A stretch of DNA of 64,000 nucleotides from Kocuria salsicia (GTDB taxonomy: Bacteria > Actinomycetota > Actinomycetes > Actinomycetales > Micrococcaceae): contig NZ_VELE01000010.1 in the NCBI RefSeq assembly GCF_007681555.1, forward strand, positions 1-64,000, read 5' to 3'. The notes beneath the pieces were generated by a model that did not search any database, was not told the origin of the DNA, and saw nothing but the letters and a program-made list of their open reading frames with translations. Both the position numbers and the translations under genes were made by a program. Below, one piece after another: positions 236 to 23,532 of this stretch; position 1 is the first letter of the stretch, and every line of letters starts with the position of its first letter.

Positions 236-628
236 GTGATCATCGAACTGACCCGATTCCGCGTCCGCGCCGGCGCCGAGGAGCGCGCGGCCGCGTGGAT
301 GGACTTCCTCCGCGCCAATCCCAAGGCGTTCCGCGAGACCCTCGAGCCCGAGCAGATGTACGTCGAGACGATCCTCAGTGAGGTTCGCGACGGCATCACC
401 TACCTTTACTGGTACTCCGTGCAGGGTGGAGACCGCGCCTCTGTCCAGGAGTCGCAGCACTGGTTGGACAAGAAGCACCTTGAGTTCTGGCGAGACGTCA
501 TCGACCCCGACTTCCCTCCCCAGGAGCTGACCCCGCAGATCCACATGACGCCGGAGCGCGTCGAGGCCGCCATGAAGCCCCTCGACGGCCCGCAGGACAG
601 CACCCCTCACCCCGGGCGCGACACATGA
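236..628 (+). CDS. DUF6176-family protein
   Basis: A 130-residue soluble protein. Its N-terminus (MIIELTRFRVRAG) and the central run of aromatic and acidic residues resemble the DUF6176 group of small actinobacterial and firmicute proteins of unknown function, probably with a ferredoxin-like alpha/beta-barrel fold. It starts at GTG behind an AAGGTG ribosome-binding site. Its stop overlaps the ATG of the next gene (ATGA), so it is the first gene of a coupled operon with two GNAT acetyltransferases. No catalytic motif is visible. The family call is from overall look only, and the function is unknown. Confidence 0.7.
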   Translation: MIIELTRFRVRAGAEERAAAWMDFLRANPKAFRETLEPEQMYVETILSEVRDGITYLYWYSVQGGDRASVQESQHWLDKKHLEFWRDVIDPDFPPQELTPQIHMTPERVEAAMKPLDGPQDSTPHPGRDT

Positions 629-1158
629 CCACCCGACTCCGCCCCACCTCTCCCGACGACGCCCCCGCCCTCGCGACGCTGATCGTCTCCCAGCGGGAGC
701 ACCTCGTCCCGTGGGAGCCGGCCCGGCCGGAGTCCTGGTTCACTGCGGAGGGCCAGCGGGAAGTCTTGGAGCAGGCGGACGCGGACCGCGCAGCGGGCCG
801 CTCTCACGCCTTCGTCATTACCGACGGCTCCTGCGCCCTCATCGGACGTCTGAACCTCGCCAGTGTGGTGCGCGGAGCCGGCCAGTTCTGCTCCCTCGGC
901 TACTGGGTCGCCCGCGAGCAGACTGGCCGGGGCGTGGCGACCACCGCAGTCAAGCAGGCCCTGCGGATTGCCTTCGAGGACTTCGGCCTCCATCGCGTGC
1001 AGGCGGAGACCCTTCCCCACAACCAGGCCTCCCGTCGCGTGCTCGAACACCATGGATTCCAGCGATACGGACTGGCCCCGCAGTACCTGAAGATCGCCGG
1101 GGCCTGGCAGGACCACGAGCTCTGGCAGCGACTGGCTCCGAACGACGCCCCACGATGA
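625..1158 (+). CDS. GNAT N-acetyltransferase, RimJ/RimL-like
   Basis: A 177-residue acetyl-CoA-dependent acyltransferase of the GCN5-related superfamily. The N-terminus (LRPTSPDDAPALATL) is the usual RimJ/RimL opening. The acetyl-CoA loop is at about residues 98-110 (EQTGRGVATTAVKQ, a variant of the R/Q-x-x-G-x-G/A motif), followed by a C-terminal region with N-x-A-S-R-R-V-L-E-H-H-G-F, typical of ribosomal-protein acetyltransferases. The substrate cannot be told from sequence. It is translationally coupled to both neighbours by 4-base overlaps. Confidence 0.9.
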   Translation: MTTRLRPTSPDDAPALATLIVSQREHLVPWEPARPESWFTAEGQREVLEQADADRAAGRSHAFVITDGSCALIGRLNLASVVRGAGQFCSLGYWVAREQTGRGVATTAVKQALRIAFEDFGLHRVQAETLPHNQASRRVLEHHGFQRYGLAPQYLKIAGAWQDHELWQRLAPNDAPR

Positions 1159-1697
1159 GCGGCGCCTGGGCTCCCTGGGCTCCCGGCGCCCGAGGCGTCC
1201 CCCGCCCTGCCGTACGGGTGCGTCCCGCTGGGCCCCGTGATCTCTCAGCCCTTGCCGCGGTTATGGCCAGCCGTGGGGGCACCCCAGAAGATCATCGGTC
1301 GGCTGCCGTGCGCTTGCTCTCTACCGCTCCTGTCCTCCTGGTTTCTGAGGACACCGGCACCGCCCCGCCCAAAGTCGTTGGGTGGTCCGGGGCCACCCGG
1401 GTCCCTCTCCAGCCAGGGGATCCGGCGCGGTGGCTGACTGCAGGCCTGACCGTCATCCCGGAGGCCCGCCGCGCAGGGATCGGTCGCCTACTGCTGCGCG
1501 CGGTGGGGGATGCCACCGCGTCGGCAGAGGGCGGACCGCTCCACAGCGTCATCAACGCGCGCAATCAAGCCTCCCTCGCCCTGCATGAAGCCTGCGACTT
1601 CAGGGTTCTTGCCACGGGTCCACGCTTCGCGGGCATCGAGTTCGACGGCGGGGTTGGCGTCCTATTGGTCATGGATCGCTCTCTTGAGCGGGATTGA
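1155..1697 (+). CDS. GNAT N-acetyltransferase
   Basis: A 180-residue GNAT-fold acetyltransferase. I chose ATG 1155 because it overlaps the upstream stop (ATGA) and the reading frame upstream is only a shadow of the previous gene. Core motif: GLTVIPEARRAGIGRLLL (beta-4 and the acetyl-CoA P-loop R-R-A-G-I-G), then the N-x-A-S-L-A-L-H-E helix with a divergent 'CDF' in place of the usual G-F/Y. It is the last gene of the three-gene coupled operon. The operon ends about 80 bases before an IS481-type repeat. Substrate unknown. Confidence 0.88.
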   Translation: MSGAWAPWAPGARGVPRPAVRVRPAGPRDLSALAAVMASRGGTPEDHRSAAVRLLSTAPVLLVSEDTGTAPPKVVGWSGATRVPLQPGDPARWLTAGLTVIPEARRAGIGRLLLRAVGDATASAEGGPLHSVINARNQASLALHEACDFRVLATGPRFAGIEFDGGVGVLLVMDRSLERD

Positions 1698-1774: not shown

Positions 1775-1799
1775 CTAGGTGTACTGACCGGGGACGTTG
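1775..1799 (+). repeat. Left terminal inverted repeat
   Basis: It begins CTAGGTGTACTGACC and ends GGGGACGTTG. The reverse complement of 3633-3657 is identical except at the tenth base. The last codons and stop of the transposase remnant (minus strand) lie inside it. Confidence 0.88.
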
Positions 1800-2221
1800 A
1801 TCAAACGTGAGAACAGCGGCTGGTTCCCGCAGGCCGTGTGCGGACGGTGCTCGTTGTACTGGTGCAGCCAGGCGGGCAGGGCGTCTCGGCGTTCTTGCTC
1901 GCTGGTGCAGCAACGGGCGTAGGCCCACCCATCAGCCATGGTGCGGTGGAACCGCTCGATCTCCCCGTTGGTCTGCGGCCGACACGGCCGAGTGCGCTTG
2001 TGCGTGATCCCCAAGTCGGCGCAGGTGTCGCGCCACAGGTGTGAGCGGTAAGCGCCGCCATTGTCGGAGAGGACCCGCTCGACGGTGACTCCGCGGGCGT
2101 TGAACCACTCGACAGCGCGCACGAGCACGGCGATGGAGGTGACGGCAGTCTTGTCGTCATGGATCTCGGCGTACGCGACGCGGGAGTGCTCGCCGCCACG
2201 TAGGGCCTCTTGTCGGGTCAA
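1775..2221 (-). pseudogene. IS481-family transposase, C-terminal fragment
   Basis: About 148 codons of an rve-type (DDE) integrase domain. It keeps the second catalytic Asp (ERVLSDNGGAYRS), the HKRTRPCRPQTNG stretch, the catalytic Glu (NGEIERFHR), and the family's C-terminal N-E-H-R-P-H and PGQYT ending. The N-terminal helix-turn-helix and the first catalytic Asp are gone: the conserved D-D-H-S-R is replaced by G-E-H-S-R at the junction. The apparent TTG start overlaps the VOC gene's stop, so it marks the junction of two unrelated sequences rather than a real start. It cannot be active on its own. Confidence 0.88.
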
Positions 2222-2583
2222 TCGATGGGGCTGACTCGGATGAGGTTGCCGTCGGGGTCGGCGATCACGAAGGTGCGACCGAACACGTCGTCATGGGGTT
2301 CCTCGACAACGCGCACGCCCTTGGCAGTCCAATCCTGGTAGACGGCGTCGATGGCCGAGGCAGGACCGGGGACCATGAGTCCGATCTCGCTTGTGCGAGG
2401 TGTCTCAGGAGTGGTGTTCTCGTTGCCGCCGGTCCAGATGGCGAACAGCACCCCGGGTGCCACCTCGAAAGCGACGTAGCGCGGGCTGGTGAAAGTGGGC
2501 TCGATGTCGAACAGGCTGCTGTAGAAGGCGGTGGACCGTTCGGCGTCGCTGACGTAGGTCAGGAACAGGTTGGGTGCCGGCAT
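2218..2583 (-). CDS. VOC (glyoxalase/bleomycin-resistance-like) protein
   Basis: A 121-residue vicinal-oxygen-chelate fold protein. The two beta-alpha-beta-beta-beta halves are visible: LFLTYVSDAERSTAFYSSLFDIEPTF, and a C-terminal half ending in FVIADPDGNLIRV, the standard end of the PhnB/glyoxalase-like group. Such proteins bind a divalent metal and may act on electrophiles or simply bind and sequester a drug. The substrate is not deducible. It starts at ATG 2583 with a GAAGGAG-type ribosome-binding site and is divergent from a WYL regulator, the classical layout for a regulator controlling this gene. Both lie inside the IS481-ended cassette. Confidence 0.88.
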   Translation of the reverse strand: MPAPNLFLTYVSDAERSTAFYSSLFDIEPTFTSPRYVAFEVAPGVLFAIWTGGNENTTPETPRTSEIGLMVPGPASAIDAVYQDWTAKGVRVVEEPHDDVFGRTFVIADPDGNLIRVSPID

Positions 2584-2673
2584 GGATGTCTCCTTCGGAT
2601 CGGTGGATCAGGTGGCTTCATCCGATCAGTCAAATACGACATCTACTGTCATGTTTTCTGTGAGGATCGGGCC
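2584..2673. promoter_or_regulatory. Divergent VOC/WYL control region
   Basis: A 90-base region, more AT-rich than the surroundings, between the two divergent genes. It contains the perfect inverted repeat GACA-TCTAC-TGTC at 2638-2650, a plausible operator for the WYL regulator, and TGAGGA at 2661-2666 as its ribosome-binding site. No -35/-10 pair is assigned with confidence. Confidence 0.5.
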
Positions 2674-3657
2674 ATGAAGTCCTCGAGGCTCTTGTCGATC
2701 CTGCTGCTCCTGCAGACCCATGAGCGGATGACGAGCAAGGAGCTGGCCCGGCGGTTCGAAGTATCGCCGCGCACGATCCTGCGTGATGTCGAGGCGCTGT
2801 CGGCCGCTGGCGTCCCGGTCCATACGGAGCAGGGCCGGGGCGGGGCGATTGTGCTGGACCGCCGATCCCGTCTCGATGTGGCGCGTCTCGATCCTGCCGA
2901 GCTGCAGTTGCTGACCGTCGCAGGACTGGAGGCCAACTTCTTCGAGCAGGTCGGGCTGCAGGCAGTTCACACCAGCGCCCGGGAGAAGCTGGCGGCCGTC
3001 GCCACGCGAAGGCAGGCTCCTACCACCTCGCCCATGTCCGAGGTGCTCCTCATCGACCCATCGGGGTGGTTCACGACCGGGCAGGAACTCGACCTGACCG
3101 ACCTGCTGGCCGCAGCGCGCGAACGACGACGCATCCTCCTCCGATATCGACGCAGCGGGGAGGCAATCGGGCAGTGGCTCACTGCAGACCCCTACGGGCT
3201 CGTGAACAAGGCCAGCTCTTGGTACCTCGTGGCTGACGTTGACGGGCAACCCCGCCTGTTCAACACCAGCCGCATCGAAGATTGTGAGTCCCTCACGGAC
3301 ACCGCGGCACTGCGACCAGACTGCGATCTCCGGTCGGTGTGGCGGGACCTGCTGGCCAGCTTCCACTCGGAGCCCGGTGTCGAGGTGCACGCGCTGCTGC
3401 GTTCGACCCGTCTGGACCTGGCCCAGCGAATCCTCGGAACACGCCTGGTCAACATCACCAATACTGAGGACGAGTGGACCCCAATCGTCGTTCACTACCC
3501 CGACGTCGAATCGGTGCGACAGCTCCTCCAGTTCGGCGACCACATCCGCATCCTGAACCCGACCGAAGCGGCCGCTCGGTTCCACGACCTCGCCGCCCAA
3601 ATCATGCAGGCTCACGCCGCAAGCAGCTCAACCAACGTCCCCGGTCACTACACCTAG
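2674..3657 (+). CDS. YafY-type HTH/WYL-domain transcriptional regulator
   Basis: A 327-residue regulator. Residues 1-60 form a DeoR-like winged helix (SRLLSILLLLQTHERMTSKELARRFEVSPRTILRDVEAL). A WYL domain follows, with WYLVADVDGQPRLFNTSRIE at about residues 183-205, and then a C-terminal WCX-like extension. Such proteins sense ligands, often nucleic-acid or nucleotide derived, and control neighbouring genes. ATG 2674 is chosen for the TGAGGA 8 bases upstream; the longer frame upstream is antisense to the VOC gene. Oddity: the last 8 codons and the stop are formed by the IS terminal repeat (NVPGHYT echoes the transposase ending), so the native C-terminus was probably replaced at insertion. 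Confidence 0.88.
   Translation: MKSSRLLSILLLLQTHERMTSKELARRFEVSPRTILRDVEALSAAGVPVHTEQGRGGAIVLDRRSRLDVARLDPAELQLLTVAGLEANFFEQVGLQAVHTSAREKLAAVATRRQAPTTSPMSEVLLIDPSGWFTTGQELDLTDLLAAARERRRILLRYRRSGEAIGQWLTADPYGLVNKASSWYLVADVDGQPRLFNTSRIEDCESLTDTAALRPDCDLRSVWRDLLASFHSEPGVEVHALLRSTRLDLAQRILGTRLVNITNTEDEWTPIVVHYPDVESVRQLLQFGDHIRILNPTEAAARFHDLAAQIMQAHAASSSTNVPGHYT
3633..3657 (-). repeat. Right terminal inverted repeat
   Basis: The mate of 1775-1799, with one mismatch in 25. It supplies the stop codon of the WYL gene and ends in CTAG. Confidence 0.88.
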
Positions 3658-3682
3658 CGGCTTGACGAAAACCATAGAGGCA

Positions 3683-3696
3683 CCCCCCCCCCCCCC
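3683..3696 (+). repeat. Homopolymer of 14 C
   Basis: An uninterrupted run of 14 cytosines, 26 bases outside the cassette edge and about 57 bases before the ATG of the next gene. Tracts like this slip in replication and are also error-prone in sequencing, so the true length is uncertain. Confidence 0.85.
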
Positions 3697-22487: not shown

Positions 22488-22617
22488 AAGCAAGCACGTG
22501 CACCACAGACGTGGGCAACGTGCGGCCATCAGCATAACAAAACTGGGCGGGCGGACGCGAATCGGGACGGTGGGCGGCCCGGACATGCCTGGCCGAGCGA
22601 CGTCGTCACCCTTCGAG

Positions 22618-23532
22618 TTACCCCTTGACGGCCCCTCCGGTGAGACCAGAGACGATGTAGCGCTGCAGGAAAAGGAACAGCAGCACCACGGGGATCGCCG
22701 ACAGGATGGCGCCGGCGGTGAACACTCCCCAGTTCTCACCGAACTGTACGGAGACGAATTGGTACAAGCCCACGGCCAAGGTGTACTTCTGCGGGTCCTG
22801 CAACACGATTTGAGCCAACAGGAAGTCCGAGAAGGACGCGATGAACGACAGCATGCCCACGACCACGAGGATGGGTGTGACCAGGGGAAGGATGATCGTC
22901 CAGTAGATCTGCGAGTGTGACGCGCCGTCCAGTGTCGCGGCTTCGTCCAGGTCACGCGGAATGGTGTTAAAGAAGCCGTACATCAAGAAGGTGTTCGCCC
23001 CCAACGCGCCCCCCAGGTAGACCGCGACCAGACCCATGCGGGAATTGAGCCCCAGGAACGGATACACCTCGGAAATACTGAAGAGCAACAAGAAGATTGC
23101 CACAAAGGCCAGCAACTGCGGGAACATCTGAATGATCAACAGGGACATCAGACCGCCCCTGCGGAACCTAAACCTGAACCGGGAGAAGGCGTATGCAGCT
23201 GCCGCGCCCATGAGAACCGTGCCCACAGCCGTGATGGACGAGATCAACATGGAGTTTCCGAACCATCTCAAGAACGGGTTCTGTGGATCGTTAAGAAGGT
23301 TTCGGTAGTTGGCGCCGGTGATCTCCGCGAAGAGGTCATTGGATCCCAACAAGGACCCCGTGGGCGACAACGAGGCCGATAGCGCGTAGACCAGGGGGAA
23401 CAGGGCGAAGACGCACGCGATGACTGCGGCCACGTGTTTCCATCCCCCACGGGCGAACCGTTGTCCGACACTGAGCCGTGACCGGGACCCTGGCTTCCTG
23501 GAGGCGACGTTCGAGACTCGTGATGTGGACAT
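22618..23532 (-). CDS. malG: Maltose-type ABC permease, MalG-like
   Basis: 304 residues and six helices. The EAA loop is at about residues 190-210 (NTIPRDLDEAATLDGASHSQIYWTIILPL), and the family C-terminus RYIVSGLTGGAVKG is present. It forms the heterodimeric channel with the MalF-like protein. It begins one base after the upstream stop. Codon choice is noticeably less GC-rich (for example TTA, AAT, GTA occur) than in the flanking housekeeping genes. Confidence 0.9.
   Translation of the reverse strand: MSTSRVSNVASRKPGSRSRLSVGQRFARGGWKHVAAVIACVFALFPLVYALSASLSPTGSLLGSNDLFAEITGANYRNLLNDPQNPFLRWFGNSMLISSITAVGTVLMGAAAAYAFSRFRFRFRRGGLMSLLIIQMFPQLLAFVAIFLLLFSISEVYPFLGLNSRMGLVAVYLGGALGANTFLMYGFFNTIPRDLDEAATLDGASHSQIYWTIILPLVTPILVVVGMLSFIASFSDFLLAQIVLQDPQKYTLAVGLYQFVSVQFGENWGVFTAGAILSAIPVVLLFLFLQRYIVSGLTGGAVKG

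Follow-up and report, generated by a model that had tools for sequence, protein, structure and literature searches.

A 1.9-kb unit in the window, the whole stretch of 64,000 nucleotides from Kocuria salsicia analysed here, is best read as a non-autonomous member of an IS481 clade in the form of a mobile insertion cassette (MIC), which would have suffered a deletion from a hairpin into the transposase gene and arrived in a compound structure that split an IS110-type element; this reading is given a probability of roughly 0.78. Between its ends lie a 3' remnant of an IS481 transposase, then a VOC gene and then a divergent WYL gene (Table 1). Judged from its sequence, the unit is a MIC-like, degraded representative of an already known type of cargo-bearing IS481 element, and the main interest lies in a regulator-plus-effector pattern across the clade and in the apparent compound insertion.

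The ends were recovered as two arms of 25 nt each that match in 24 of 25 positions (96% complementary) with a spacing of 1833 nt, the same arms that an earlier note on this DNA had described. Allowing up to 3 mismatches, a search of the 3.06-Mb genome for their core, TGTACTGACCGGGGACGTTG, gave 16 matches, against 0 for a reversed-pattern control; the arms are therefore the ends of a repeated element, and a chance hairpin as their origin is ruled out. The terminal inverted repeats start with TGT, as those of IS481 do, and CTAG is found at each outer edge. IS ends around passenger genes with no functional transposase make the arrangement that of a MIC, and not that of a transporter IS, because the unit holds transposase residues 191-328 of 328 instead of the complete gene. 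The proposal of a non-autonomous, cargo-bearing IS481 derivative is in line with these ends, the cargo and a transposase too short for autonomy.

Table 1. Features of the unit and its flanks (positions in the window)
Feature	Positions	Strand	Evidence
Left terminal inverted repeat and outer CTAG, also coding the end of the transposase remnant	1775..1799	+	Repeat search; 16 related genomic ends
3' IS481 transposase remnant (residues 191-328 of 328)	1775..2191	-	tblastn; Pfam rve and rve_3; NF033577
Deletion junction, where the VOC terminator hairpin (first arm, part of loop) runs into mid-transposase sequence	2188..2207	-	Comparison with L037 and L026, by eye
VOC gene, EhpR-like antibiotic-binding protein (predicted)	2218..2583	-	Pfam Glyoxalase; PDB 3sk1 EhpR, E=2e-35
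Divergent promoter region with palindrome GACA-N5-TGTC, candidate operator	2584..2673		Comparison of 13 sequences
WYL-domain transcription regulator, last codons and stop within right end and CTAG	2674..3657	+	Pfam HTH_11, WYL, WCX
Right terminal inverted repeat and outer CTAG	3633..3657	-	Repeat search
CCTAGC (one target-duplication copy), then IS110-type 3' end	3653..3690	+	Flank comparisons
DUF6176 gene and two GNAT genes that may lie as cargo inside a larger compound element	236..1697	+	Pfam; position inferred

The transposase remnant scored 166.9 bits against NF033577, below the cut-off of 224, with model positions 156-279 of 284 covered, and its homology to the full 328-residue IS481 transposase starts at residue 191 by tblastn. 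The SDNGG motif and the Glu segment are still present, and the HVDVKKL segment, taken by motif reading as the first catalytic Asp in full copies, is missing; the earlier note had likewise read the remnant as a last third without this Asp. In two related elements with a complete transposase, L037 and L026, a 13-bp stem with a 4-nt loop follows the VOC gene (folding covered these two of the four such VOC/WYL elements, and the unit). The 13-bp-stem hairpin as such is missing in the unit (z -0.1): by-eye comparison with L037 and L026 showed that the first hairpin arm is kept, that the break falls in the loop and that mid-transposase sequence follows. Two Cutibacterium species (L038 and L040) have in common another deletion: on the left it breaks in this loop or at most about 2 nt from it, and on the right it breaks deeper in the transposase gene, as compared by eye with micro-homology blurring the exact base. 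Although there are only two cases, this second deletion at nearly the same breakpoint points to breakage at the hairpin. Before the deletion, the element would have had two ends around a full transposase, an EhpR-like VOC gene and, divergent from it, a WYL regulator. The junction shows that an internal deletion fused mid-transposase sequence to the loop of the VOC terminator hairpin; the 5' part of the transposase was lost, presumably by breakage at the hairpin.

With a dN/dS of 0.39 against L014, the remnant is not necessarily long dead. A complete related IS able to act in trans had been suggested as something to look for, and candidates were found: the genome has a complete transposase on contig C47 (L015, residues 1-328) and a nearly complete one on contig C11 (L014, residues 1-323), of which the last residues and the right end are gone. 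These candidate transposases could move the ends of the unit in trans.

A simple deletion in one element does not seem to be the whole story, since the tail of the transposase is nearest to one element and the cargo to another. The tail is sister (99/96) to that of the TetR/RibD element L014 on C11, with 92% DNA identity and 84% for the next best, while the VOC gene, the intergenic region and the WYL gene are closest to those of Kytococcus L037 (93, 91 and 85%). Exchange between IS481 elements has probably occurred too. A recombination chimera, in which two residents fused so that the tail and left end came from a TetR/RibD IS481 and the VOC/WYL pair and right end from a Kytococcus-like VOC/WYL IS481, would account for this mixed ancestry and for the mismatched 6-bp flanks described below, and is a serious competitor at somewhat under even odds. 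However, the 8% divergence between the tail and L014 means that any exchange was not recent, and the separate Cutibacterium deletion with nearly the same hairpin breakpoint favours breakage at the hairpin.

The VOC and WYL genes, read as a pair in the earlier note and both supported by Pfam, are intact and look selected: dN/dS against L037 is 0.21 for VOC and 0.18 for WYL, which indicates that both genes are kept. The best PDB match of the VOC protein is EhpR (3sk1), with E=2e-35 over residues 3-121. EhpR (PDB 3sk1/3sk2) is a phenazine-binding resistance protein whose ligand-contact side chains are R42, Y43, W57 and F109 (PMC3175449), and these correspond to R35, Y36, W50 and F101 in the VOC protein when the alignment is mapped by eye. 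The VOC protein is a homologue of EhpR, for which binding of a phenazine-type ligand and resistance may be predicted. The WYL protein has all three domains of a YafY-type regulator (HTH, WYL and WCX, by Pfam), and its frame crosses the right end, so that its C-terminal tail and TAG stop come from the IS and the target sequence. The tail NVPGHYT-stop and the transposase tail NVPGQYT-stop use one and the same frame of the end repeat, and both stops thus derive from the CTAG edge; the same arrangement was found in 7 of 20 listed cargo elements (L026, L037, L044, L048, L098, L128 and L134). In the divergent promoter, GACA-N5-TGTC is exact in 12 of 13 sequences, which are related and not 13 independent cases, with GACA-N5-GGTC in L039. 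In the proposed mechanism, the WYL protein would sense a toxic planar aromatic compound and control the divergent promoter through this palindrome, while the VOC protein would bind such a compound as EhpR binds a phenazine; sensing, repression and resistance by the pair are predictions from homology. In another context, beside EVE domains, the co-occurrence of YafY-type (WYL) regulators with proteins of the EhpR family has been recorded (PMC7641849).

The searches recovered four VOC/WYL IS481 elements whose transposase is complete: L026 from a genus relative, L037 from Kytococcus aerolatus, L098 from another genome of the order and L041 from the C. jeikeium plasmid pA505. The gene order in all four is end, transposase, VOC, divergent WYL and end, as in the window; the VOC frame of L026 is broken, and three have perfect 6-bp duplications, L098 being the exception. 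VOC/WYL pairs with no nearby IS481 end or transposase detected were also found (L039, L042, L095-L097, L106, L116, L118 and L119). The earlier note had held that such pairs with the same flanks would speak against its reading; IS-less pairs do exist, but they sit at other places with other flanks, and the pair therefore looks like a captured module. The truncated 1.9-kb form had no second copy in 27 genomes, with 14 candidates scored per genome, or in 396 genomes, with only 2 candidates scored per genome (own genome included in both searches), and no plasmid record covers 80% of the unit; this lack of a second copy counts against the reading given first. In the own genome, a second, decayed VOC/WYL pair was observed (L024 2535-3477, on C33 at about 22534-23476) with a transposase-tail-like INLPAQ further on.

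The IS-less pairs in other genomes and the low dN/dS of both genes would also suit a domesticated VOC/WYL operon, in which the IS ends are fossil, the transposase remnant is decaying and the pair is kept as a chromosomal resistance operon. The truncated VOC/WYL unit of the two Cutibacterium species (L038 3194-4957, L040 from 3194), with degraded ends and a common junction across both, looks like such vertical domestication. For the unit in the window, domestication is rather unlikely, since its ends match in 24 of 25 positions and the genome holds many related ends together with two near-complete to complete transposases.

The flanks connect the unit to a second contig. CTAG at both edges does fit the target choice of IS481, as had been pointed out, but its left 6-bp flank is TCTAGG and its right one CCTAGC; this mismatch, which counts against the reading given first, contrasts with the perfect repeats of 26 of 30 cargo-bearing relatives. 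A 6-bp direct repeat, usually NCTAGN, was found not around the unit alone but only at the outer pair formed by C11 and the window. The right flank from 3659 on is the 3' end of an IS110-type element, whose other part is found on C11, where it ends in CCTAGC immediately ahead of the TetR/RibD element. When the C11 left flank and the window right flank are joined, they align at 88% each to the IS110 copies L089 and L090, and relative to both of these unsplit copies they have six additional bases at CCTAGC. In four of five relatives (L082, L084, L087 and L088; not L085), the conserved block that comes next upstream of the GH76 gene, about 0.1-4.6 kb away, is the one that precedes IS110 on C11. 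The relatives show this locus without the unit: the stretches of all five contain neither an IS481 end nor an IS110 end. In the own genome, the unsplit IS110 end gave 0 matches, and the stretch upstream of GH76 in relative G026 gave only three short weak matches. Given the six-base duplication and the split IS110, a single insertion running from the left end of the TetR/RibD element to the right end of the unit is the simplest explanation.

That the unit inserted here alone, mobilised in trans by the transposases present in the genome and with one flank mutated afterwards, agrees with CTAG at both edges but is very improbable, because both informative flank bases differ and the right flank is an IS110 3' end while the left flank is not, the matching IS110 part lying beside another IS481 end on C11. 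By the compound reading, a larger IS481 structure, with the unit as its right end, probably inserted in the IS110 element next to the GH76 gene; the split with its 6 bp is observed, and continuity is presumed across the contig gap, which is unclosed. It speaks against this reading that C11 and the window contig C1 are unjoined in the assembly and that C11 continues for almost 6 kb past the left end before it stops; the TetR/RibD element there is without its inner end. If one insertion explains the split, the DUF6176 and GNAT genes would lie inside the compound insertion. Four contigs (C2, C11, C47 and C49) stop within about 70 bases of an IS481 end, which suggests that a multi-copy relative was probably collapsed or missing in the assembly. 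A run of 14 C (3683-3696) was seen directly after the IS110 3' end in the window; C runs also follow the IS110 ends in L089 and L090, and one lies on C11 between the conserved block and IS110.

Cargo was considered unusual for the family in the earlier note, a view that does not fit this IS481 clade, in which the census found cargo to be common. The first part of the census comprised 36 loci, 28 of them with both ends, 22 having a perfect 6-bp repeat and 6 not (the unit, L021, L038, L040, L098 and L137); the second comprised 20 loci, 17 with both ends, 12 perfect and 5 not (L141, L143, L148, L149 at a contig end, and L151). Among the 45 two-ended loci, 30 carry cargo beside a full-length or nearly full-length transposase. 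Simple 1.1-kb elements account for 10 more, and the last 5 were set aside as broken, truncated or with a doubtful right end (the unit, L021, L038, L040 and L137). That relatives of this element are normally cargo-free is ruled out by these counts. Four of the 30 cargo elements entered the census by the VOC/WYL query (L026, L037, L041 and L098) and 26 by the transposase tail, with near-copies among them (L044/L134/L048 and L130/L131). Perfect 6-bp repeats were found in 26 of the 30, with CTAG in 23 of these; the others are AGTAGC (L130), TCTAAG (L134) and TCTAAT (L138). The transposase frame is open throughout in 27 and near full length but broken in L141, L144 and L150. L144 and L150 have perfect 6-bp repeats, and the three frame-broken copies indicate that transposase loss in cargo-bearing elements may be frequent.

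A regulator is present in 28-29 of the 30 cargo elements; it was HMM-tested in 23, among them L150 with just an AbrB/MazE-like protein, and assigned by similarity or record annotation in L048, L131, L134, L135, L136 (insertion-interrupted) and L141. The regulators are of the WYL, AraC, TetR, MerR, ArsR, Rrf2, MarR, HxlR, LysR and PadR types or an HTH_3/cupin protein, besides the weakly AbrB/MazE-like one. The effectors include VOC, RidA, NAD(P)H-binding, ArsP permease, EamA transporter, SRPBCC, SnoaL, alcohol dehydrogenase, alpha/beta hydrolase, DUF2268, DUF2938, cupin and ABC proteins; the second ORF of L155 had no Pfam match. In L142 (1086-5165, genome G411) no regulator was found; it has a perfect ACTAGC repeat, and its cargo is a piece of an MFS gene and an ABC protein in which two ATPase domains are present.

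A transposase tree of 42 rows splits into two sides, each at 100/98: one consists of nine simple elements, and the other contains the cargo-bearing elements together with the simple, long-branched L158. VOC/WYL, MerR/DUF2268 and NAD(P)H/Rrf2 each occur in both cargo sub-groups (90/90, not starred, and 99/94), so that exchange between elements or repeated capture is needed. In a WYL tree of 17 rows, the IS-borne rows are not one clade, and the intervening IS-less rows could have lost their ends; L094, labelled IS-less in this tree, in fact carries the end repeat.

Cargo-bearing IS481 elements are already known (ISPfr21, ISArsp12 and TnRErm46), and the clade-wide regulator-plus-effector pattern is more interesting. 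ISArsp12, an IS481 family element on the Arthrobacter plasmid pA2H1 (PMC6305408), has the end repeat TGTACTGACCGGACACGTTG, which matches the core of the unit in 18 of 20 positions, and shares with the clade a CTAG-centred 6-bp duplication and a regulator and effector beside the transposase; it differs from the unit in its intact transposase, its ArsR and permease cargo and its length of 2,615 bp. ISPfr21 of Propionibacterium freudenreichii, with 86% DNA identity to ISArsp12 (PMC6305408), likewise combines an IS481 transposase with a TetR regulator and one more gene, but its cargo is different and the available text of its description mentions no transposase loss (PMC2909200). TnRErm46, an IS481-driven element of Rhodococcus equi, is described as having NCTAGN direct repeats like the clade, a target CTAG that supplies the transposase stop codon, and a TetR regulator with a resistance gene as cargo; unlike the unit, it is 6.9 kb long with seven genes, reported active transposition and another end sequence (PMC6794481). 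A MIC with ISPfr11 ends resembles the unit in having IS termini around a passenger gene and no transposase gene, but no regulator is mentioned in the accessible part of the report (PMC2909200). EhpR itself belongs to an operon for phenazine biosynthesis and, unlike the VOC protein, has no WYL partner on an IS (PMC3175449). Element L041 of pA505 (NC_004773) has the same module in the same order and the duplication TCTAGC as its own, but it differs in its complete transposase, a WYL protein 48% identical and a WYL stop before the end repeat.

A brief remark on IS481 names resistance genes and regulators as possible cargo of its members (PMC6794481); AraC and LysR genes near IS transposases (PMC7232470) and IS5564/Tn5564 with cmx, listed as IS481 (PMC8304765), have also been reported. 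No clade-wide regulator-plus-effector rule was found in the open-licence PMC literature, judged mainly by title, with ISfinder and TnPedia outside the scope. The chances appear about equal for and against the proposal that the actinobacterial IS481 clade is a vehicle for exchangeable one-component response cassettes, in which nearly every element has one regulator and one or two small effectors in the space from the start of the transposase to the opposite end, transposases of distant lineages are found with the same cassette types, and a part of the regulators take their C-terminus from the end repeat and their stop from CTAG. Swapping, transposase loss and compound pairing would then be routine, and the unit would have been caught midway. 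As sensor and effector very often travel together in this clade, the cargo would already be regulated on landing, and small regulated modules for detoxification or resistance, here EhpR-like, may spread among actinobacteria by this route, which can be tested. The CTAG-derived stop codon, the hairpin between effector and transposase and the palindrome common to the divergent promoters are directly checkable features.

The own genome holds two other cargo-bearing IS481 elements, the TetR/RibD element on C11 and, bounded by a perfect CCTAGG repeat, a MerR/DUF2268 element on C47. A decayed cargo IS481 was also observed at L021 1855-4856 (C22), with DJ-1/PfpI- and AraC-like genes, named from sequence reading, and a broken transposase.
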